A stretch of 35,927 nucleotides of DNA from an uncultured Microcaldota archaeon (GTDB lineage: Archaea > Micrarchaeota > Micrarchaeia > CAILAH01). The position numbers were made by a program, and so were the translations under genes. The stretch is from positions 1-35,927 of the forward strand of contig CAILAH010000017.1 of the NCBI GenBank assembly GCA_903832205.1. The letters run 5' to 3'. The notes below the pieces were generated by a model. The model did no database searches, had not been told where the DNA came from, and saw nothing but the letters and a program-made list of their open reading frames with translations. Each line of letters starts with the position of its first letter. Positions within the stretch are counted from its first letter, which is position 1. Below, piece after piece: positions 21,613 to 35,927 of the stretch.

Positions 21613-23631
21613 TTAGTAGCCCCTTTCCTCTTTGAGCCTCTTTAGCCTTGCCATCTTCTCCCTGAGCTCAAACTCAAGGCCGTCGATTTCAGAATCTGCC
21701 TTCTTTGGCTGCTCACGTGGCTCCTTCGGGGCCTTCTCCTTTGCGGGCCTTGGCTCCTTCTGTGCCATTGCGGGAGCCGCTGCCACTGATTCACTTGGAG
21801 AAACTGACTCGCGGGTTGCCATATCGCCAACGGTGACGCGCACCCTCTGGTTCTGCTCCGCGTGTGCAGGCATATGCTCATCGTGCGGCTGCGCGTTGCC
21901 CACCATGTAGGTGTAAACAACAAAGAATATGGCAGCTGCAAATATCAGCGCGCCTAAAATGGTCCAAAGGGGCATGGTTGCCTTGATTGCGTCTGCGGGT
22001 GACATTTCACCTGCGAACACGGCAAGGATTGCGCCGAGCATATCACTGGATACGCCGCTTGCTGCATCCACATCGCCTCCCTGATTCTGGCTCATGTTAA
22101 GCGGCTTTATAGGCGGCTTGCTGACCAATGGCACTTCCTTCACCGTAACCACGTTCGTGCCGGATATGGCATACTTGCTCGATTTGAACGTATAATCGCC
22201 AGTTGTTGCGGGGACAAAGGTCAACTTTCCGCCGTTCTTTGTAACCAGCGAAACGGACCTGCCGTCTGGCATGACGACAGTCACGACTACACCGTCAACA
22301 GGGTTGCTATTTGAGTCGAGCACGTTAATCTCAATTGTGTCGCCCACATATGCGGATTCGGGGAGCACGAACTTGAGCACGGTACTGCCACTTAGAGGCG
22401 GTTTCGTGGGTTCGGTGCCGCTGTTTCCAGTGTTTGTGCCCGTATCCGTGCCTGTATTATTGCCTGTTGGAGTGACATTTGTATCCGAGCCTGTGCCGCT
22501 GGTCCTTCTCTTGCTCGGGTCGTAATTCGAAGAGGTGTCCTTCTTGGTCACCAGTATTGTGACTGAGCCGATAAGGCTTGCGTTTGTGCGCGAGGTTGCA
22601 GTAACGGTTGCAGTGCATGCGTTCTGTGAAGAGAACGTGCTTCCCTGCACCACGCCGCAGCTTGTGCCGAAGTCAACGTTTGCGGTTGCCTGGCCGTTGC
22701 CATACTGGTCAACTTCCAATGCGGTCAGCGAGACCGGGTCAGTAGTGTAAACGTTTGTATTGCTTGCCTGCAATGAGAGCGAGCGTACCTGGCCGAAGTT
22801 GACAGTAAGCGTTGAGGTACCGCTCTTGCCGCCGAACAGCGCACTTACGCTGTGCGCGCCGGCTGATGCTGCCACAAGCTTTGGCGAGTAAATCGTTCCC
22901 GCGCCGCCTGAATTCCAGGTTGCCGCAGAGGTGACGTCCTCCTGGTGGCCATCATTGTAGGTTGCTGTTGCTGTGAGCGTTACTTCGCTTCCTGCATTTA
23001 CAGTGGCGCTGCTTAAGCCAACAGCAACTGACTGGACCACGGGGGTCGTGTCAACTGCGGTCGGCTCCAAAGTTGAAGTGACAGTTATGGTTCCTGCAGG
23101 CGCAAGCGAAACGTGGTAAGACTGTTCCGCATGGAATGGTGCGCTGAATATTACATCATAGTCGCCTGGCGAAACGTAAAGATTGCCTGATGCGCCATCA
23201 AGCCTTGCGACAACCTCGTTGCCGCCCTGCATCACGCGCACGAAGCCGTTTGCAAGCGGTGCTGATGCATTGTCATTTACAACTGCATGTATTGTTGCCT
23301 GCGGCACGAGCAAAAGGTTGCCCATGTCAACTGCGCTTGAGGCGCCCACATCTGCTGTGAATGAGCTGCTTGAATAGCCGGTGTCCACAACCCTAACCGT
23401 GTAATGGCCTGTTGCGTTTGCGAGCGAAAATGTGCCGTCCGCTGCGCTTGTGAGCTGCGAAACGAGCACGTTGCCTGAATCGTAGACGTTCACCTGCGCA
23501 TTTGCAATGCCGCCCATGCTCATGGCGTCAACGACTTTTCCAGTAAGGCTGCCTGCAGCTACAGGTGACGCAAGGATTGCGAAAAGAAAAACAAATGCAA
23601 GAATTATGTTTTTTATAGTCATCATCATCAC
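21613..23631 (-). CDS. Membrane-anchored surface protein with Ig-like domains and a charged cytoplasmic tail
   Basis: A 672-residue exported protein. The signal peptide (about 1-26, IILAFVFLFAILASPVAAG) is followed by a carboxypeptidase-regulatory-like domain (27-95, GSLTGKVVDAMSMGGIANAQ), a second similar domain, Big_2-like Ig domains (about 200-365), and a Thr/Asn/Gly linker (about 375-410) suited to spanning a wall or outer layer. Another Ig-like unit follows. One membrane helix (about 553-577, WTILGALIFAAAIFFVVYTY) leads into a tail of about 95 residues ending in a Lys/Glu coiled coil (LREKMARLKRLKEERGY). Four ATGs follow one another at the start, overlapping the upstream stop as TGATG, so the exact start is uncertain. 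It is probably the membrane partner of the 1612-residue protein. Confidence 0.82.
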   Translation of the reverse strand: MMMMTIKNIILAFVFLFAILASPVAAGSLTGKVVDAMSMGGIANAQVNVYDSGNVLVSQLTSAADGTFSLANATGHYTVRVVDTGYSSSSFTADVGASSAVDMGNLLLVPQATIHAVVNDNASAPLANGFVRVMQGGNEVVARLDGASGNLYVSPGDYDVIFSAPFHAEQSYHVSLAPAGTITVTSTLEPTAVDTTPVVQSVAVGLSSATVNAGSEVTLTATATYNDGHQEDVTSAATWNSGGAGTIYSPKLVAASAGAHSVSALFGGKSGTSTLTVNFGQVRSLSLQASNTNVYTTDPVSLTALEVDQYGNGQATANVDFGTSCGVVQGSTFSSQNACTATVTATSRTNASLIGSVTILVTKKDTSSNYDPSKRRTSGTGSDTNVTPTGNNTGTDTGTNTGNSGTEPTKPPLSGSTVLKFVLPESAYVGDTIEINVLDSNSNPVDGVVVTVVMPDGRSVSLVTKNGGKLTFVPATTGDYTFKSSKYAISGTNVVTVKEVPLVSKPPIKPLNMSQNQGGDVDAASGVSSDMLGAILAVFAGEMSPADAIKATMPLWTILGALIFAAAIFFVVYTYMVGNAQPHDEHMPAHAEQNQRVRVTVGDMATRESVSPSESVAAAPAMAQKEPRPAKEKAPKEPREQPKKADSEIDGLEFELREKMARLKRLKEERGY

Positions 23632-26600
23632 CCGTACATTGTCACGTTCTTTGCAAGCTCCGTAAGCGGAGGCAGGTAGAGCGTGTAAAGCGACCTCTGG
23701 TAGTTCGGATGCGTGGTCTCAACCATGTACACTCCTGCGGGCAGTATGAATTCATATCCGCCGTTTGCAAGTGAGGTTGCAGTTGCCACGAGGTTTCCGT
23801 TCCTGTATGCGTTGAGCGTCGCGCCGCTCACGGACTCATTGGTGCTGTTTGAGACAGTGCCGTAGAGCCTGGACATCTTTGTCAATGCATAGTTCCTGGT
23901 CGTTGTGCTGCCGTCGAGCACGTGGATGCCGTAGTCCCTGGCGGGCAGGTAGCCCGTTGCGGTGACCACCACATCATAGGTGTCTGCCGGCAGGTTGAAT
24001 GAGAATGCGCCTGCCGCATCGGTCGTTGTGCTGAATATCACCGCATAGTTCTTCATCACGGTCACGTTGGCGCCCTGGATGGGTGCGCCGCTCGTGTTGG
24101 AGACGACGCCGTTAAGGACGCCGTTGCCTGAAGGCTGCGTCACCGTCACATTCGTTGTGTTGGTGAGCGCTGCCGCGGTTGCTGTGACCATGTAGTTGCC
24201 TGCTGTGTTTGAGCTGAACTGTGCGATCGCCCTTCCGTTTGAATCCGTGTTGACGGATGCCGGCGCGACACTGCCGTTGCTCGCTGTGAACAAGACGGAC
24301 TGGTTCGCCAAAGGCGCGCCGTACTGGTCAAGCACAGTTGCGGTTATGGTGCTCGTTGCGCCTGCGAATATGCTCACAGGGTTTGCAACAAGCTGCAGGA
24401 CGGTTGCGACTGATGCTGCAGTCACTTCCACTGAAGAGCTGTTCTGCATAACGCCTGAAGTTGCGTTGACTGTGTAGTTGCCCACAACTGTGGAGCTGAA
24501 CTGCACTGTCGCATAGCCGGTCGCATTCGTGGTTGCGGTTGCTGCGGACAGGTTGCCACCATCAGCGGTAAAGTTCACCTGCTGGTTCGCAACACCTGCA
24601 CCGTACTGGTCAATCACGCGTGCGGTCACTGCGCTGTGGCCCACTGTAGATATTGCTGCGGGCATCGCAGAGAGCTGAATGCCTGAAGGCACTGAGCCTG
24701 CGCTCACGTTAACCGTGGTTGAGTTTGTCGCTGCGCCTGCCGTTGCGTTTATCGTGTAAACGCCCACAACGGGTGCGCTGAACTGTGCGGATGCGCGGCC
24801 GTTTGCATCGGTAAGCGCCGATGCGGGTGCGATTATTCCGTCAGAAACGAAGTTGACGGTTGCACCGCTTATTGGCTGGCCGAGCGCGTCGCGCACGGTT
24901 GCGGTAACGATGCTCGTGCTTCCGGTGGACAGGTTGTTCGGCACCGCCACCAGGTCAACTGATGCGGGCGGAATAACGTTCACTGAAATGCCGGTTGTGT
25001 TCTGCAGTGCGCCGGTGCTCGCGTTAATGCTGAACATGCCGGGCAATATGGAAACGAACTGTGCAACTGCACGGCCGTTTGCATCCGTGTTCACTGAAGA
25101 GGGCAAAAGAATGCCGCCGCTTGCAGTGAACGCAACGGGTGTGTTTGCAACAGGCTGGCCCCTTGCGTTAAGCACAATTGCCGTAACGGTGCTTATCTGA
25201 CCCACAAGCATGTTGTTGGGCGCTGCGGTAAGCTGCACCGTTGCCAGAGGCACGTCGCTCACCGTAATAACTGTCGAGTTGCTGAGCGCGCTTGAATTTG
25301 CAGCAATTGTATATACACCAGTTATTGAAGTGCTGAAATCCACCAGTGCGTCACCGCTTGCGTTTGTGATTATGGTTATTGGCGAGTTGCTGTATCCGAC
25401 AACAACGTAATCCACTGGCACATTCGCCATCGGCTGGCCGTTCGCATCGAGCGCCTTCGCAGTTATGTTTACTACGTCATCAACGTAAACACTGTTGTTT
25501 GTCGCTGAGATCTGTAGCGTTGTAAGAACAGGCTGCGGGGGCAATACGGTAAGGTCAAAGAAAAGTCCGCTCCTTAGACTACCACCTATGTGCGGCATGC
25601 CCTCAGCAAACACAAGGATCTGAAGATCCCCGTTGTAAACCGAATTATTCACGTCAAAGCTACAGACAGTTGTGAAATTACACTCCTGCACAGTTGTGCC
25701 GTTTATCTGTATTATCATCTTAGATATGCCTGTTGCGTCATCAGCTGTTGCACTAACTGTGAAAGGCTGTGCAACAATGCTGTGCGGCCCGGGTGTTGGC
25801 GGAATAACTCGGACCATTGGGTACACATTATCTACTAAATATGTGCGCTGCACGCTTGCTTCGTTGCCGCGGGTGTCGTTTGCAGTTGCAATAACTGCAA
25901 CCTGCCCGTCGGGATATGCGGAGGTGTCTATCACCACGTTGCATGCGGCAGTTGCGCAATTTGCAACCTGCGTTGATGTTGAGCCGTTTACAACTGAGAT
26001 TACAGTTGCCGCATAGTGCGGGTCTGCCGCCAAAGTTGCAACCGGCAGGTTGCCGCTCAGGCACATGAAATCATATGGAGTCGGGTCCACCCAAGAAATT
26101 ACTGGCGAGCTGACATCAAGTCCGCCGAGCGTAAAGTCAAGCACGACCGGAACGCCCGGGTTTATCATTGTGCCTGCGGAGACGGTATCATAGCCGGGTG
26201 CGGTTGCAGTCACCATGAATTGCGCCAATGCTGAGTTGGGCGCAACGTTGAAAGCATAGTGGCCGTTTGCATCGGTGAGCACGCTGGTGCTGTACACGCT
26301 GTTTTCATAGAGCGTGACGTTTGCATTCTGCATTAGCTGTGCGTTCTCGTCCCTCACGTTTCCTGAAATTGATGTAAGTACCCTCACCTGCATGTCCTGC
26401 GTGTAGTTGTTATTCTGGTCGTCCTTCAAAATCTGGAAGTTGTCAACACGCTCGGTTTGGTAGCCTGCCTTGCTGAACGTTATGCTGTAGTTGCCGTTCA
26501 GGTTTACATTATCAATCCTGTAGGTACCGTTTGCATCTGTTATTGCACTGTACGGCGTGCCCTCTATCTGCACCAGAACGCCCTGGAGCGGTGCCGGACG

Positions 26601-28466
26601 CGTGTAATAATCTGCTACAACACCTGAAAGTGTTGCGTCAGGTATGGACACGGTGAACTGGTCGTTGTCGGTTATTGAAGTGCCGTCGATGTTCATACTG
26701 TAAAGCACGTTGCCTTCAGTAGCGCCAACGGTTACTGCAATGGAAGCAATCCCGTCAACACCAGTATTAATCTGCGCATTGTTCGGCATTGCCGTACCGC
26801 TGAGCACATTGTAATTCACAACGACTCCCTGCACAGGGTTACCGAACTGGTCGGTAACGTTTGCAAAGAGCGTGTGCTGGCTGTTTACAACAGCTGTCGG
26901 GCCCTCTGATAATGCATCAATCCTTGCCGCGGGCCCGTTGGTAACTGTAACGGCTGCGTTTGCGCTGACACCGTTTGAACTGACAGTGACGACATCATCG
27001 CCGACTTTTTGCGGCGCTGTGTAGAGGCCGTTTGCATTGGCAGTTCCGTTAACTGCAGACCAGGTGTATACAGCATTAGGTACCGTTGCATTGTACTGGT
27101 CGTAGAGCACTGCGGTGAACTGCTGCTGTGCGCCCGCAACAACATTTGCTGTAATCGGCTGTATCACAACATAGGACACGTTGCCGTTCCTCACAATCAC
27201 CTGCGCGGTGCCGCTTACTGGCGTTAGCACAACTAGCGGAGAGTTGAAGCAACCGAGCTTGGGAACGCACTGCTGTAGAATAGTTATACTATCATAATAG
27301 ACAGTCGCCGCGATCGTTGAGGCGCCCGGATGCACTGCGGTTGCAACACCGGTCTGGCCCACTGTGGCGACAGATTCATCGCTGCTTGTCCAGTTGATTT
27401 CCTTGCCAGTTATCTCATTCATGTACTTATCGTACACGCGTGCATTGTACTGGACCATCTCATGGACGTTGAGTGTGTTTGTAGCTGGCGCAACAAGAAC
27501 CGATGCGGGAACATCCGGAACAACACTAAAGTAAAATGCCTTGCTCTGGCTGGGACAGAGGAACTGGTCCTTTGTTTTTACTATAACGTGGCTCGTTCCT
27601 GCCAAATTGCCGATTGGAAGCATGAAGCTGACCACACCGCTTGAATCGGAAGAGTTCTTCAGCGAAACCTTCGTGCCGTTCGGTGAGGTGTATTCAAGCT
27701 CCATGGCAACACCGGGCTTTGTGTTGTTATACAAGTCCATTGTGGCTGCGGAAACGGCGATATTATCGCCTGCTGTGTACTGCGCTGAAAGCTCATCCGC
27801 GATGAACGCATTGCATGCACCAGGTATTACGGTGACATTTGCAGAAACAGTCTTGCCCGAGTAATCGGCCTTAAGCATGGTGGTGCCTGCCTTGGAGCCG
27901 ACAAACTGGACCTGGTTCTTTGTCGTAATGCTGGGATGCGAAAGCGCGCCTACACTATTATTAGTAAGCGAAAATGCCGGCTCGGGGACAACTGCAGAGC
28001 CGTCCGGCGCATAGGCACTGGTGGTGAAGTAGTACGGCGTTCCTGCAACTGCAGTATCGAGCTTTACCGGGTCAATGTTAAGCGATTTTATTTCCTGCAC
28101 ACAGCTTGCGGTAGGCTCAAGCACAACAGCGACCTGTAGGCTGTTGCCGCTTATATAATATGTACCACGCGCCTGGGTGGAGGTAAACTTGAATGTGCAG
28201 ACTCCATCCGAGCCGGTCTTGCATCCAAGGTTGGTGTCAGCGTAATTCTGGCTGTACACCTTGATTTGCTTGCCTGGCGAGGATGTGACCTTGATATCAC
28301 AGTACCTTGGCACTGTCTGCGGGTTAACGCTCAATCCGCTCGGTGCGGCGAAAACGTTCGCCACATCGGGATTGTAGATTGTGTCTCCCTGGATGTTCAC
28401 CACAAATGCAGATGTGGAGGCCAGCAGGAAGAGCAGCCCAATTATTATGATTGCCTTGTTGTCCAT
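23628..28466 (-). CDS. Giant Ig-repeat surface protein (adhesin-like)
   Basis: A 1612-residue exported protein, the largest gene here. The signal peptide (about 1-22, AIIIIGLLFLLASTSAFVV) leads to beta-domains with paired cysteines (about 23-330), a Big_2 domain (about 332-395), further Ig units, and two carboxypeptidase-regulatory-like domains (about 610-780). Two Ig-like domains with cysteine pairs (about 785-975) precede five tandem Big_1/invasin-like repeats of about 94 residues (about 979-1447) and two C-terminal regulatory-like domains, ending at MYG. Sequons N-x-S/T are abundant. There is no C-terminal membrane helix, so it must be held by a partner, most simply the next gene. AGGTGGTG before the ATG overlaps the stop of the upstream gene. 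Adhesion or cell-surface structure is inferred. Confidence 0.88.
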   Translation of the reverse strand: MDNKAIIIIGLLFLLASTSAFVVNIQGDTIYNPDVANVFAAPSGLSVNPQTVPRYCDIKVTSSPGKQIKVYSQNYADTNLGCKTGSDGVCTFKFTSTQARGTYYISGNSLQVAVVLEPTASCVQEIKSLNIDPVKLDTAVAGTPYYFTTSAYAPDGSAVVPEPAFSLTNNSVGALSHPSITTKNQVQFVGSKAGTTMLKADYSGKTVSANVTVIPGACNAFIADELSAQYTAGDNIAVSAATMDLYNNTKPGVAMELEYTSPNGTKVSLKNSSDSSGVVSFMLPIGNLAGTSHVIVKTKDQFLCPSQSKAFYFSVVPDVPASVLVAPATNTLNVHEMVQYNARVYDKYMNEITGKEINWTSSDESVATVGQTGVATAVHPGASTIAATVYYDSITILQQCVPKLGCFNSPLVVLTPVSGTAQVIVRNGNVSYVVIQPITANVVAGAQQQFTAVLYDQYNATVPNAVYTWSAVNGTANANGLYTAPQKVGDDVVTVSSNGVSANAAVTVTNGPAARIDALSEGPTAVVNSQHTLFANVTDQFGNPVQGVVVNYNVLSGTAMPNNAQINTGVDGIASIAVTVGATEGNVLYSMNIDGTSITDNDQFTVSIPDATLSGVVADYYTRPAPLQGVLVQIEGTPYSAITDANGTYRIDNVNLNGNYSITFSKAGYQTERVDNFQILKDDQNNNYTQDMQVRVLTSISGNVRDENAQLMQNANVTLYENSVYSTSVLTDANGHYAFNVAPNSALAQFMVTATAPGYDTVSAGTMINPGVPVVLDFTLGGLDVSSPVISWVDPTPYDFMCLSGNLPVATLAADPHYAATVISVVNGSTSTQVANCATAACNVVIDTSAYPDGQVAVIATANDTRGNEASVQRTYLVDNVYPMVRVIPPTPGPHSIVAQPFTVSATADDATGISKMIIQINGTTVQECNFTTVCSFDVNNSVYNGDLQILVFAEGMPHIGGSLRSGLFFDLTVLPPQPVLTTLQISATNNSVYVDDVVNITAKALDANGQPMANVPVDYVVVGYSNSPITIITNASGDALVDFSTSITGVYTIAANSSALSNSTVITVSDVPLATVQLTAAPNNMLVGQISTVTAIVLNARGQPVANTPVAFTASGGILLPSSVNTDANGRAVAQFVSILPGMFSINASTGALQNTTGISVNVIPPASVDLVAVPNNLSTGSTSIVTATVRDALGQPISGATVNFVSDGIIAPASALTDANGRASAQFSAPVVGVYTINATAGAATNSTTVNVSAGSVPSGIQLSAMPAAISTVGHSAVTARVIDQYGAGVANQQVNFTADGGNLSAATATTNATGYATVQFSSTVVGNYTVNATSGVMQNSSSVEVTAASVATVLQLVANPVSIFAGATSTITATVLDQYGAPLANQSVLFTASNGSVAPASVNTDSNGRAIAQFSSNTAGNYMVTATAAALTNTTNVTVTQPSGNGVLNGVVSNTSGAPIQGANVTVMKNYAVIFSTTTDAAGAFSFNLPADTYDVVVTATGYLPARDYGIHVLDGSTTTRNYALTKMSRLYGTVSNSTNESVSGATLNAYRNGNLVATATSLANGGYEFILPAGVYMVETTHPNYQRSLYTLYLPPLTELAKNVTMYG
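24126..25530 (-). repeat. Five tandem Big_1-like repeats within the giant surface gene
   Basis: Each unit is about 280-290 bases and encodes a repeat with the core pattern T-A-x-V-x-D-x-x-G-x-P-x-x-N, then V-N-T-D-x-N-G-R-A-x-A-Q-F, then G-x-Y-x-I-N-A-T. Units are diverged at the DNA level, so recent expansion is not evident. Confidence 0.75.
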
Positions 28467-31464: not shown

Positions 31465-31809
31465 ATGAAATTTGCGACATATGCACTTGCCATACTAATG
31501 CTCGGTTTTGCGCTGTCATTTGCAGGCTTTCCTGAGGTAATCAACAATACTTGCGTCGACATTAAGGCAGTGATGCCGCTTATTGCGTTCACGCTGCTCG
31601 TTTTTGCCGGCCTTGTTTACGCGGGCGGCCAGGTGCTTGGCGCGGAATTCAGGTCAAGGACCAACACATGGGCGACAACGATCGCCATCGGTGCGCTCAT
31701 CGGGCTGCTGATAGCGTTCAGTGCACCCTGGATCGTAACCACCATTGGAAGTGCCGCTGGCGAGGATGTCAACAGCTACCAGTACAACTGCAAGGACAAG
31801 ATTTACTGA
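31465..31809 (+). CDS. VirB2/TrbC-like small membrane protein, pilin candidate
   Basis: A 114-residue protein with a signal peptide (about 1-20, FATYALAILMLGFALSFAG), a short extracytoplasmic segment with a cysteine (NNTCVDIKAV), two membrane helices (about 37-58 and 69-90), and a polar C-terminus with a second cysteine (YQYNCKDKIY). A signal peptide plus two helices is the arrangement of VirB2/TrbC pilins and of archaeal DNA-transfer pilins of the Ced/Ted systems, but sequence similarity is too low to prove it by eye. The frame opens at a TTG at 31438; the ATG at 31465 with GGTGATGGG upstream is preferred. A TATA-like GTATATAAAC lies at 31421-31430. It starts the operon that includes the VirB4-like ATPase. 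Confidence 0.7.
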   Translation: MKFATYALAILMLGFALSFAGFPEVINNTCVDIKAVMPLIAFTLLVFAGLVYAGGQVLGAEFRSRTNTWATTIAIGALIGLLIAFSAPWIVTTIGSAAGEDVNSYQYNCKDKIY

Positions 31810-31818
31810 GGTGCACTG

Positions 31819-32580
31819 ATGGAAACCAATGAAACCCTGGCCTATGGCGCACTTGGGCTCGGATTATTTTTCCTACTAATTTCATCCCAGTTCCAGCCTC
31901 TCGCACTGCTCTCAGTGGTGGCTGCGGGAGTCAGCTGGCTGTTCTACTCCTGGGGCAACATATACGTCCCATTCTTCACAAGGGGCCAGAAGGACATTAG
32001 GATGAAATATGATTTTGAGGTATCCCCCGCGGAAGATGCAATCGTAAAGCGGGAGGGGGAGGATTATATCGCAACGGTGTTCCTCGGCATTGATGTTTAC
32101 GAGACGATGACCAACAAGAGCGAGGAGGAAATTAAGGATTACGCACAGTATTTCGAGAGGACCATCTCAAGCCTTAAGGACCCGATTAAGATTTCAACCA
32201 TACTTTACGAGAAGGATATGGGCAAATATATCCATACAATAGAGGAGAAGAAGGCAGTGATTGACACGAAGATTGCACTGGAAAGGCAGAAGAAAAAAGT
32301 GGATGAGAGGGCAATTGAGGTCCTTGAAAGGGAGCACATGATGTGGGACAGGATGCTCGAATCAATGTACAAAACTTCAAACAGGCCGAGGGCAGTCGCC
32401 TACATACTGGCGACATCCGCCAAGGGCACGTCAAAGGACGGGGCAGTGAATGCAGCCAAGGTGCGCGCCAGGGAAATCAAGGCAACGTTCGGCAGCGGCA
32501 TGTCCGTAAGGGTTGATGAGCTTTCGCACAGCAGGATGAAATCCTGTTACGATTGGGACTTTATGTCCCCGGAGTGGTGA
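31819..32580 (+). CDS. Membrane protein resembling VirB3 plus VirB4 N-domain, first paralogue
   Basis: A 253-residue protein with two N-terminal membrane helices (about 8-25 and 28-45) followed by a soluble alpha/beta domain facing the cytoplasm. It aligns with the next gene over most of its length: DPIKISTILYEKDMGKYI matches SPIKLNMLLSTKDVGAYR, and both end with a K-A/N-x-x-A-K/R-E-I-K-A motif and a C-x-D-W motif (CYDWDF here). Two short helices followed by a domain of this kind is what VirB3 fused to the N-terminal part of VirB4 looks like, with the motor domain in a separate gene downstream. GAGGTG precedes the ATG. This role is inferred from architecture and context. Confidence 0.72.
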   Translation: METNETLAYGALGLGLFFLLISSQFQPLALLSVVAAGVSWLFYSWGNIYVPFFTRGQKDIRMKYDFEVSPAEDAIVKREGEDYIATVFLGIDVYETMTNKSEEEIKDYAQYFERTISSLKDPIKISTILYEKDMGKYIHTIEEKKAVIDTKIALERQKKKVDERAIEVLEREHMMWDRMLESMYKTSNRPRAVAYILATSAKGTSKDGAVNAAKVRAREIKATFGSGMSVRVDELSHSRMKSCYDWDFMSPEW

Positions 32581-32584
32581 TGGC

Positions 32585-33385
32585 ATGGTAATGATGCCAA
32601 AGCTCTACATGACAGCGGCCGTTGTGCTCCTCATGCTGATTGCCCTATTCATATCATTCCAGGCAGGGCTTATCTTTTTCATAATCGGGCTGCTGCTTGC
32701 GGCAGTAGTGGGCGGGTTCCTCTATGCAGGCTACGTGCTCACGCCGATACTCACGAAGATAATGAAAATCACATTCACAAAGGGCGAGTACATATTCCCG
32801 CCTGGCCAGGAAGTAATCATTAAGAAAACCGGGAACAAATTTATCGCGGCGAAATACCTTTTGGTGAACATACCTGAAAGGGAGGAGATAGCCGGGAAGG
32901 CGGAGGAGAGGTCAGAGGTTTACCTCAGGGATTTTGAGACCGCACTGGGCGCAATAACCTCGCCAATCAAGCTCAACATGCTGCTCTCAACAAAAGACGT
33001 TGGCGCCTACAGGGAGGGAATACAGGCGAAGACGTATGAGTTCAGCCTCAGGATTAAGAGGGAGATGGAGAAGGCCGAGCCGGACGTAATCAAGATTGAC
33101 AAGTGGCAGAAGGAAAAGGAAAACTATGAGAACCTGCTCAGGAGGCTTGCGAGCGGTGTGAAGCCGCTGGCGGCAGTCATGTACGTTATGACCGTCGGAA
33201 AGGGAATAACGATGGATGAGGCGCGTGACAAGGCAAACAACCAGGCGAAGGAAATCAAGGCAGTCCTATCAAACAACCTCAACGCGGAAGTGGTTGACCT
33301 GATTGGGGAGGATGCAGAGATGTGCCTTGACTGGGAGCGCGTAATACCCGCGAGCTATAACGATCTCGTGGAGAGGACCGGGTGA
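32585..33385 (+). CDS. Membrane protein resembling VirB3 plus VirB4 N-domain, second paralogue
   Basis: A 266-residue paralogue of the preceding gene. Two close N-terminal helices (about 8-24 and 28-52, LIFFIIGLLLAAVVGGFLYA) precede a soluble domain with SPIKLNMLLSTKDVGAY (about 134-150), a charged coiled-coil part, MYVMTVGKGITMDEARDKAN, and a C-terminal MCLDWERVIP corresponding to CYDWDF in the first copy. The ATG at 32585 follows GGTGATGGC and the stop of the first copy by 4 bases; the ATPase ATG is 4 bases past its own stop. Tight spacing and tandem paralogy suggest a hetero-oligomer docking the ATPase to the membrane. Confidence 0.72.
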   Translation: MVMMPKLYMTAAVVLLMLIALFISFQAGLIFFIIGLLLAAVVGGFLYAGYVLTPILTKIMKITFTKGEYIFPPGQEVIIKKTGNKFIAAKYLLVNIPEREEIAGKAEERSEVYLRDFETALGAITSPIKLNMLLSTKDVGAYREGIQAKTYEFSLRIKREMEKAEPDVIKIDKWQKEKENYENLLRRLASGVKPLAAVMYVMTVGKGITMDEARDKANNQAKEIKAVLSNNLNAEVVDLIGEDAEMCLDWERVIPASYNDLVERTG

Positions 33386-33389
33386 TTCG

Positions 33390-34958
33390 ATGGGATTAAT
33401 CAAAGTGAAAAACAAGAAGCTCTACAGCTCGGATATTGCGAGCAGGGGCATCATCACCAGGCCTCCGGAGCCGCCGGCAGAGCTCATCGCCGGGGACCCG
33501 ACCAATTCCATTTACATCGGCAGGACGGCCGTGTTCAACGAGCCGTTCCACTGGAGCTATGAGAACGTCACCAACCCGCACATTGCCGCCGTGGGAATCT
33601 CGGGTGCGGGTAAGTCATATTTCATCAAGACATTCCTGACCAGGGCGTATTTCGTGTGGAAGACGAATGCGCTAATCATCGACTGGGCAGGGGAATACAG
33701 GGACTGGGTAAAGCAGGTGGGCGGCAAGGTGCTCGCGCTTGGAAAAGGCTCATACCTGAACCTGCTGGACCTTGCGGGCATGAGGCCGCTGGACAGGGTG
33801 AAGCAGATTTCAAGGAGCCTTGAGATACTCACGGATATCGGCAGCTACCCGGAGCAGAAGAGGCTGACCGAAGAGGCGATTGAGAGGGCCTATGTCAACA
33901 AGGGATTCAAGATGTCTGAGCGCAACCAGAAGGATGCGCTCGGCAACCTGATGGCGCCGCCGACATTGAAGAACGTGCTGGAAGTGCTTGAGGAGAAATT
34001 GTCCGCGGGCACCTACGAATTCCCGGTTGAGCTGGAGAATGCAATCTACAGGGTAAAGAAATTCACAAGGGAAGGCGAGGATTTCTTCGCGCAGCCGAGC
34101 ACCATTGACCTGGACGCGCTCATCTCATCGGGAATGGTTGATTTGGATTTATCAGGATTGCCGGATGAGACCATGAGGGCGCTCGCTGCGCTCAGCGTCC
34201 TGCAGTTCATCAAGGAGAAGATGAGGCTTACCGGCTTTGAGAAATCAAAAGGGCTCAAGCTCATCATAGTGCTTGACGAGGCGTGGAAGATTGCAAAGGA
34301 GGAGACCAGCGATGCGGTCATGATTGTAAGGGAGGGCCGCAAGTACCAGTTCGCGCTGTTCGTCGCGTCGCAAAACCCCACGGATATCAGCGAGGCCATA
34401 TTCTCAAACGTGGGCACAACGTTCATACTTAGGGTTAAGTTCGAGAAATTCCTTGACTACCTGCAGAACTCGCTCAACTTCAGCGATTACATGCGCAAGC
34501 AGATCGCGAGATTGGGCGTGGGACAGGCTGCGGTTAACATGGCGCTGCAGACAAGCACGCCATACCCGGAGACGTTCCTTCTCTCGAAGATTGAGGGTGA
34601 GGAGCCGGTGGTTGAGTACTTCCTTGATGTGAAGCCAAAGTTTGTTGGAGAGGGTGAGATTGTGGGAAAGACACTTTCGTTCGAGCGCGATGACCTGCGC
34701 AAGAAGCTCAGGATGTTTGGGCTTGCAGATGAGAAAGTCGAGGAGATTACCTCAACATTTGACAAGGCCAACAGGCACCTTGACGTGGTCGACTTCGTAA
34801 TCACGCTGGAGAGGTATGACGTGGACAGGAATGACATTACCGGGTTCCTCAAGGACCTGAGTGTCGAGGACAGCGTCATCATAAACATATTCTCCGAAGC
34901 GGATTACAAGAAGCTCGGCGTGCGTGGGGAAAGTACGGAGGTTGAATTAAGTGGCTAA
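33390..34958 (+). CDS. VirB4/HerA-class motor ATPase
   Basis: A 522-residue P-loop ATPase of the VirB4/TraC/HerA superfamily. IYIGRTAVFNEPFHWSYENV leads to Walker A GISGAGKSYFIKTFL (about 68-82). LIIDWAGEYRDW is the usual strand after it, and LIIVLDEAWKIAKEE (about 291-305) is Walker B. REGRKYQFALFVASQNPTDI (about 315-334) is the motor motif III region, and NVGTTFILRV carries the expected arginine. A C-terminal extension of about 100 residues (after FLDVKPKFVG) is all-helical and ends at ELSG. The N-terminal domain that VirB4 proteins usually have is missing and seems supplied by the two upstream membrane proteins. GGTGAT precedes the ATG. A pilus or substrate-pumping motor is inferred. Confidence 0.9.
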   Translation: MGLIKVKNKKLYSSDIASRGIITRPPEPPAELIAGDPTNSIYIGRTAVFNEPFHWSYENVTNPHIAAVGISGAGKSYFIKTFLTRAYFVWKTNALIIDWAGEYRDWVKQVGGKVLALGKGSYLNLLDLAGMRPLDRVKQISRSLEILTDIGSYPEQKRLTEEAIERAYVNKGFKMSERNQKDALGNLMAPPTLKNVLEVLEEKLSAGTYEFPVELENAIYRVKKFTREGEDFFAQPSTIDLDALISSGMVDLDLSGLPDETMRALAALSVLQFIKEKMRLTGFEKSKGLKLIIVLDEAWKIAKEETSDAVMIVREGRKYQFALFVASQNPTDISEAIFSNVGTTFILRVKFEKFLDYLQNSLNFSDYMRKQIARLGVGQAAVNMALQTSTPYPETFLLSKIEGEEPVVEYFLDVKPKFVGEGEIVGKTLSFERDDLRKKLRMFGLADEKVEEITSTFDKANRHLDVVDFVITLERYDVDRNDITGFLKDLSVEDSVIINIFSEADYKKLGVRGESTEVELSG

Positions 34959-35412
34959 AAAAGAAAATGAAGGATTCCTTGCAAAGCTGTTTTCCATGAG
35001 GCAAAAGCCCAAGGAAGAGGGCGGGCATGCAAAGAAAAGGCATACGGCGCACATGGTGCGCGGCGTGTGCATCCACTGCAACAAGGAGGGCGACGGGAAG
35101 CCAAAGCTTACGCAGGGATACCCAATAAAAGACGATTACGTTATCGGAATTATCAGGTGGCTCAAGAGAAAGACCAGGACCGAGCAGAAAAACAGGCTCG
35201 TGGTGTGCGAGAAGCACGCGGATGAGCACGAGAAGAAAAGGGGCGGGTTTGAGCGCTCGCTCATAATATACGGGGGCATCGGCATATTCCTTTTGGTGAT
35301 ACTGCTGCTGCTCAACCTTTCATTTGGGTCGCTCATCGCAGGGCTGCTATTGTTGTTGTTCCTGGTCGTAACGGCGCACATCAAGTACGTGCCCAAGGCA
35401 GAGGGGATATAG
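34951..35412 (+). CDS. Putative zinc-binding membrane protein of the T4SS-like operon
   Basis: A 153-residue protein of unknown family. A basic N-terminus (1-38) is followed by a C-x2-C pair (C40, C43 in CIHCNK) and a C-x2-H pair (C86, H89 in CEKHADEHEKK), arranged as a possible zinc site. Two C-terminal membrane helices (about 104-123 and 126-145) end in a short basic tail. The start is a GTG at 34951 that overlaps the stop region of the ATPase gene by 8 bases, with GGAGGT at 34938-34943, so translation is coupled. It could be a membrane dock for the ATPase or for a nucleic-acid or protein substrate; nothing more specific can be seen. Confidence 0.75.
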   Translation: MAKKENEGFLAKLFSMRQKPKEEGGHAKKRHTAHMVRGVCIHCNKEGDGKPKLTQGYPIKDDYVIGIIRWLKRKTRTEQKNRLVVCEKHADEHEKKRGGFERSLIIYGGIGIFLLVILLLLNLSFGSLIAGLLLLLFLVVTAHIKYVPKAEGI

Positions 35413-35415
35413 GTT

Positions 35416-35927
35416 ATGTCTAGCGGGATGAAAGCAACGGACATTGCAATCGAGCCGATGGGCGCATCGTTCAAGTTCGGCGCCAAGCGCAAGGTAACCA
35501 AGGAGCAGCTGCTCAAGATGATTGAAAGAATACCTGACGCGGAGATTGCCGACATTAAGGACAGTGTCGCGGTCATCAAGATAGACAGCAGGGACATAGA
35601 CAGTGCCCCCTACCTGTTCAACATCCTCTACCTCAACGCGGACAGCATTGAGATGATGTATACCGTGACACCGGAGATAAGCATGCGCAAGAGGCAGCTG
35701 GAGCTGCTGCGCTACACAACCAACATGCTCACGCTGCTCAAGGATGCCTATGATGTTGACCTGGCAAGCTATATGCAGGTGCTTGACATCTTCCTTGCGG
35801 AGATAAAGGAGTTTGCAACGTCGGATTACGAAAAGCTTTACATTAAATATGATGCGCTGCTCGCAAAGGTCGAGGAGACGCAGAAGCAATATGAGAGGAT
35901 GAAAGAGAGCAATGAGAAAATCAGCAA
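35416..35927 (+). CDS. Coiled-coil protein of the T4SS-like operon, C-terminus cut by window edge
   Basis: An open frame of 170 codons from the ATG at 35416 runs off the window with no stop. It begins MSSGMKATDIAIEPMGASFK. Its first part is alpha/beta (about 25-85, KRKVTKEQLLKMIERIPDAE onward), and the visible end is a charged coiled coil (about 135-170, YDALLAKVEETQKQYERMKE). There is no signal peptide or membrane helix in the visible part. I recognise no family. It lies 3 bases after the zinc-binding membrane protein, so it belongs to the same operon and may be a cytoplasmic partner of the ATPase. Confidence 0.7.
   Translation, partial: MSSGMKATDIAIEPMGASFKFGAKRKVTKEQLLKMIERIPDAEIADIKDSVAVIKIDSRDIDSAPYLFNILYLNADSIEMMYTVTPEISMRKRQLELLRYTTNMLTLLKDAYDVDLASYMQVLDIFLAEIKEFATSDYEKLYIKYDALLAKVEETQKQYERMKESNEKIS

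Follow-up and report, generated by a model that had tools for sequence, protein, structure and literature searches.

A candidate chromosomal type IV secretion-like machine of Micrarchaeota with a split VirB4 and conserved arrays of six VirB6/CedA-like genes

Gene organization and conservation of the operon

The window, by which we mean the whole stretch of DNA analysed here (35,927 nucleotides), is the whole of contig C17 of a 1.11-Mb archaeal genome that is 82% complete. The initial annotation had supposed a DPANN-like cell from the letters alone and the host is indeed a Micrarchaeota archaeon, its closest named relative as judged by the motor ATPase (93% identical) being 'Candidatus Micrarchaeota archaeon isolate SKW51'. 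Six tightly packed genes were found on the plus strand at positions 31465-35927, the sixth being broken off by the contig end:

31465-31809, plus strand: candidate VirB2-like pilin, 114 aa, with a signal-like N-terminus and two transmembrane (TM) helices
31819-32580, plus strand: NTD-1, 253 aa, with a TM hairpin and a VirB4-N-like domain
32585-33385, plus strand: NTD-2, 266 aa, with a TM hairpin and a VirB4-N-like domain
33390-34958, plus strand: VirB4/CedB-like motor ATPase, 522 aa, without the N-domain
34951-35412, plus strand: zinc-site protein with two TM helices (Zn/2TM), 153 aa
35416-35927, plus strand: coiled-coil protein, partial, with the reading frame open at the contig end (to 35925) and 170 aa so far

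Consecutive genes are separated by 9, 4, 4, -8 (an overlap) and 3 bases. Both the reading frames and their close packing were found where the initial annotation had placed them.

Conservation of the operon was observed to be far above chance, with the ATPase present in 55 of 60 relatives. In the relatives whose loci were read, the recurring order is NTD, ATPase, Zn/2TM protein, coiled-coil protein and bitopic protein, where the NTD gene may be single or double and both the Zn/2TM gene and a second ATPase C-terminal domain are optional. Within the same genus (loci L035 and L055, 93% identical ATPase) the operon is completed by a 246-aa coiled-coil protein followed by an 870-aa bitopic protein. 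A polytopic VirB6/CedA-like protein had been anticipated past position 35927; the relatives have the coiled-coil and bitopic proteins there, which rules out a VirB6 gene directly beyond the contig end, and the polytopic proteins were found on other contigs. A viral origin was also ruled out, the ATPase having no relative in viral contigs.

The motor ATPase

The 522-aa protein matches the Pfam families AAA_10, TraG P-loop and DUF87. Its best NCBIfam match is CedB (4e-21), followed by the VirB4-like family CD1110 (1e-17), and mollicute VirB4, CedD and TraC (8e-16) are also matched. These scores lie under the equivalog cut-offs and the assignment to the VirB4-type ATPases is therefore a superfamily match only; for CedB, 75 bits were obtained against a cut-off of 700, making it the nearest family and not one to which the protein belongs. 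Matches in plasmids are mostly to TraC, with 26% identity over residues 61-374. Its Walker motifs A (GxxGAGKS) and B (VLDEAWK) are kept in 20 relatives.

It is very improbable that this protein is a HerA-type DNA-repair helicase with membrane genes beside it by chance. HerA chains do rank among its top PDB profile matches and the DUF87 match would also fit such a helicase, but those PDB matches span mainly the Walker B region and the CedB/VirB4 families score higher than HerA (8e-12). The genome's true HerA sits separately on contig C8 and reaches 7e-49 in the same NCBIfam scan. The helicase reading is already contradicted by the phylum-wide retention of the cassette and by the VirB4-N-like fold of the NTD, and the clustering with HerA that the initial annotation had named as counter-evidence was not observed. 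Judged by its family profiles, the ATPase is nearest to CedB/VirB4 and not to HerA, and it provides the putative VirB4-type motor expected in the type IV secretion system (T4SS) superfamily.

Two variations of the motor gene were noticed in relatives. In one orthologous ATPase (L176:2665-5829, G023:C37), an in-frame intein (Pfam Intein_splicing, 5e-16) that includes a LAGLIDADG domain is inserted close to the Walker B motif region. In other loci (L117 from 11543, L040:8590-8886 and others), a separate gene of ~100 aa after the ATPase encodes a second copy of its C-terminal domain, corresponding to query residues ~425-514; this copy is absent from the window's family.

The N-domain proteins

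NTD-1 and NTD-2 are paralogues with 25-26% identity and are the only NTD copies in the window genome. An AlphaFold2 model of NTD-2, made with 80 relatives with NTD-1 among those aligned, reached a pLDDT of 88.4 and a pTM of 0.76. When this model was compared with the PDB, ranks 1-7 were all chains of the R388 T4SS while rank 8 had a probability of only 0.38. The first two are the VirB4-only entries 7o42 and 7o43 (VirB4/TrwK), with probabilities of 1.00 and E-values of 4.5e-3 and 6.4e-3, and the other five are inner-membrane-complex entries with probabilities from 0.97 to 0.82; the TM-score of the fold match is ~0.4 and no E-value is below 0.001. At the N-terminus, two helices look like the hairpin of VirB3, a protein that in R388 is wound around the VirB4 N-domain (PMC9259494). 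The proposal of two paralogous VirB3/VirB4-N-like membrane proteins is supported by both the identity and the fold matches, and structures unrelated to VirB3/VirB4, which would have spoken against it, were not obtained. According to the model, the VirB4 N-domain and VirB3-like hairpin expected in the T4SS superfamily appear to be present as separate proteins. The split VirB4 of the initial annotation gains support from this VirB4-N-like fold together with the CedB/VirB4 scores of a motor that has no N-domain.

Pfam has no family for the NTD, the Zn/2TM protein or the polytopic proteins described below (B6), and PDB profile searches with the NTD, B6 and bitopic proteins gave nothing meaningful. 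Orthology between the NTD pair of the window and that of other families was found to be unsupported; the tree suggests separate duplications, where the independence of the duplication in the window's family is tentative because the branches are long.

The pilin and the accessory proteins

The pilin of the window alone gives weak Pfam matches below the cut-off (PF18895, 0.025; PF04956, 0.058). At the family level, PF18895 (T4SS_pilin) and PF04956 (TrbC) are each matched by 13 of 20 members, with best E-values of 9.5e-7 and 2.8e-6 respectively, and relatives of the pilin occur in 49 of 60 genomes. On these family matches of ~1e-6, the 114-aa protein, which had been proposed as a two-helix pilin, is a predicted VirB2-like pilin and supplies the VirB2-like component expected in the T4SS superfamily.

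The 153-aa protein has two TM helices by hydropathy, and a CxxC...CxxC/H pattern was observed in the majority of 12 relatives, though not in all, which agrees with its earlier description as a zinc-site membrane protein. The truncated coiled-coil protein is 79% identical to that of L035 over the part present; the full gene is found in L035 and L055. The protein has 246 aa in the nearest relative and 246-251 aa across L035-L037 and L055-L057, which are of the window's genus and family. The bitopic protein (~870 aa where intact) has one TM helix at its N-terminus and another ahead of its C-terminal domain, and the large domain between the two helices looks extracellular.

Arrays of six B6 genes

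In several families, polytopic B6 genes are located directly upstream of NTD-NTD-ATPase with pilins upstream of the B6 genes. The family of Fermentimicrarchaeum (CP058998) is one example, and the linked order pilin, six B6, NTD, NTD and ATPase is seen in more than one family. The window genome has two six-gene B6 arrays on other contigs (C33:14236-21133 and C10:13368-21884), with no linkage to the motor operon seen. Matches to the B6 profile were found in 50 of 60 relatives and in 179 of 196 genomes of the phylum.

The B6 proteins have ~6 or 7 hydrophobic helices. Among PDB structures, the model of one of them (pLDDT 75) is matched best by a chain of 268 residues from an R388 T4SS entry, which we take to be TrwI/VirB6, and this match is weak (probability 0.90, E 0.08, TM ~0.3); rank 5 is a VirB5-VirB6 stalk entry. 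The pilin profile was observed to align with the first hairpin of B6 (P 2.6e-5, probability 75%), and such kinship has been reported earlier for the pairs CedA1/CedA and VirB2/VirB6 (PMC9905601). No sequence match of B6 to P-type VirB6 was found, whether one sequence or an eight-sequence profile was used, so that the label 'VirB6-like' is used here because of context, topology and the weak fold match and carries no sequence-profile link.

Exactly six open reading frames were found in 48 of the 50 complete multi-gene arrays at distinct loci, a count that is not a random sample because the loci were picked by their best B6 or ATPase matches, mostly in metagenome assemblies; clustering at 40% identity gives 23 groups, so the arrays are also not all independent. 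The other two arrays have seven frames, one member being split in two in L115 and a weak 193-aa fragment being added in L125. Arrays of two to five B6 genes were not found among these loci, and the six single-gene B6 loci all belong to a minimal paralogous system with one pilin, B6, NTD and ATPase in a row (L160, L161, L162, L169, L170 and L171). This minimal system occurs in relatives from several families and is absent from the window genome.

A tree of 132 B6 proteins requires 7 changes of position label, where the minimum is 6 and shuffled labels require 84; for 294 proteins, 9 changes were obtained against 191 for the shuffles. In a held-out test, whole clusters of similar arrays were removed, per-position profiles were made from the rest and the removed proteins were scored. 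The correct position was the top match for 285 of 288 proteins and for 288/288 with one-to-one assignment, which also placed the B6 proteins of the window genome correctly (12/12). Raw percentage identity fails to place these divergent proteins by position whereas the position profiles and the tree succeed. Together, the trees and held-out profiles argue for one ancestral six-gene array, whose genes have stayed distinct and have kept their order throughout the phylum, genomes with two arrays included. As far as profiles and trees can tell, each array position is an orthologous group.

The constant number and order of the B6 genes suggest a ring with one copy of each, and the fact that all six are retained together favours their use together in one ring. 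The same machine might instead use the six proteins as alternative channels or for separate jobs (cargo, partners or assembly steps) that share no ring. We consider this less likely, even though the lengths and extracellular inserts of the B6 proteins vary with position, the only VirB6 ring with a solved structure consists of five identical subunits (PMC9259494) and the roles of CedA and its paralogue CedE differ in part (PMC11868833). Every complete array, duplicated ones included, keeps all six genes in the same order, which would be unexpected for interchangeable channels, and a single-gene B6 version does exist in the minimal systems. The homo-pentameric VirB6 of R388 also means that six genes need not give a six-membered ring. 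A shared ring remains our preferred arrangement, and an obligate hetero-hexamer channel with one each of six ancient VirB6/CedA-like paralogues, joined to a hexameric split-VirB4 motor in most Micrarchaeota, is proposed tentatively, at somewhat under even confidence.

Comparison with known systems

The Ced system of Sulfolobales (CedA, CedA1, CedA2, CedB, CedD and CedE) is likewise chromosomal and without a relaxase, and it has a two-TM pilin, a CedB-like motor and polytopic CedA-like proteins, a likeness that stands here without established sequence-level orthology. Its VirB4 N-domain is also spread over proteins, with CedB and CedD each covering part, and in Saccharolobus the two together could form the whole domain (PMC11868833). 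In Micrarchaeota, however, the split is complete, the N-domain being missing from the motor and forming a separate protein with a membrane anchor; furthermore, there are six CedA-like genes in a fixed array together with the Zn/2TM, coiled-coil and bitopic proteins. The Ted system of Thermoproteales (TedA, TedB and TedC) also has chromosomal archaeal VirB2-, VirB4- and VirB6-like parts (PMC9905601) but is described with one TedA and one TedB, and without a six-gene array or separate N-domain.

The R388 T4SS (TrwL/M/K/I) shares the VirB4 N-fold, possibly the VirB6 fold, and a VirB3 hairpin beside the VirB4 N-domain (PMC9259494). Its VirB4 is one chain, however, its VirB6 is a homo-pentamer, and it has a relaxase, a coupling protein, VirB5 and VirB8-11, none of which was identified in the Micrarchaeota machine. 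VirB4-type systems are also widespread on the chromosomes of Patescibacteria (T4SS) and nanohaloarchaea (VirB4), lineages that have small genomes and depend on partners, although neither a VirB4 split in this manner nor a six-gene array for the channel is described in the available parts of these accounts (PMC12102498, PMC10266531). The machine of Micrarchaeota is a variant of the T4SS kind and is not a member of Ced or Ted.

Proposed machine and its cargo

The kinship of the pilin, N-domain and motor to T4SS components agrees with the initial annotation of a type IV secretion-like operon with a split VirB4. From these parts we infer a T4SS-like machine and, less surely, a hetero-hexameric channel. 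The 522-aa motor and the separate membrane-anchored NTDs (253 and 266 aa) would jointly do the work of VirB4, with the NTDs tethering the motor to the membrane. Six specialised paralogues, one copy each, would form the channel as a VirB6/CedA-like ring matched to a hexameric motor. Motors of this kind are hexameric in their kin, and the replacement of a homo-hexameric MCM by MCM2-7 offers a parallel. The VirB2-like pilins may assemble on the ring as a filament or filament base, and the coiled-coil and 870-aa bitopic proteins could connect the motor with a domain for outer contact.

The likeliest work of this machine would be ATP-driven movement of DNA across the envelope, by import and not conjugation. 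A conjugation system requires both a relaxase and a VirD4-type coupling protein, and in 41 genomes the relaxase search (PF03432 only) returned no match (0/41) while the VirD4 search (PF02534) gave just two marginal partial matches, neither of them convincing; the initial annotation had also seen neither protein. ComEC was likewise absent from the 41 genomes. These results speak against conjugation and ordinary competence, and the kinship of the motor to CedB fits a Ced-like DNA import.

The main alternative is protein delivery to a partner cell or, more broadly, a DPANN host-contact device that exports proteins to the partner or takes molecules from it and moves no DNA. We hold this to be a less probable but serious reading, since the machine occurs in nearly all members of a phylum whose genomes are small, the loci read always encode a large bitopic surface protein with it, and no relaxase or convincing coupling protein was found; a role in host interaction has also been proposed for VirB4 proteins of nanohaloarchaea (PMC10266531). 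However, the nearest named family of the motor is the DNA importer CedB, and no effector-like genes were noticed nearby in an unsystematic look. Taken jointly, a chromosomal, phylum-wide T4SS-like machine with a split VirB4 and a hetero-hexameric B6 ring, most likely importing DNA, is the reading that we favour by a modest degree of confidence.

How DPANN archaea and their partner cells exchange molecules is a long-standing question, and the genes named here give a near-universal candidate exchange machine in one DPANN phylum. A fixed six-gene channel predicts an exact subunit composition. It may also be a prokaryotic case of change from homo-oligomer to hetero-oligomer, for which the single-gene paralogous system in the same phylum allows comparison. 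To our knowledge, a subunit-specialised ring of this kind is not known from any secretion or DNA-transfer system. A literature search that lay outside most subscription journals found nothing naming Micrarchaeota and VirB6 together, and where Micrarchaeota and type IV secretion were joined, each was mentioned just once or twice.

Genes neighbouring the operon and the arrays

The minus strand of the window encodes, at 21613-28466, two large proteins of 672 and 1,612 aa that look secreted and contain repeated Ig-like stretches, and both are kept upstream of the operon across the window's family. Beyond the bitopic gene, a convergent gene in the L035-L037 and L055-L057 group was judged by eye to be glycosyltransferase-like. 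One B6 array of the window genome is adjoined by two genes that look FtsZ-like by eye (L158:4711-6842, G000:C10). Downstream of the other array (L157:15153-19901, G000:C33) are a 249-aa protein that matches no Pfam family and a very large protein of > 1,275 aa which looks secreted and runs off the stretch.
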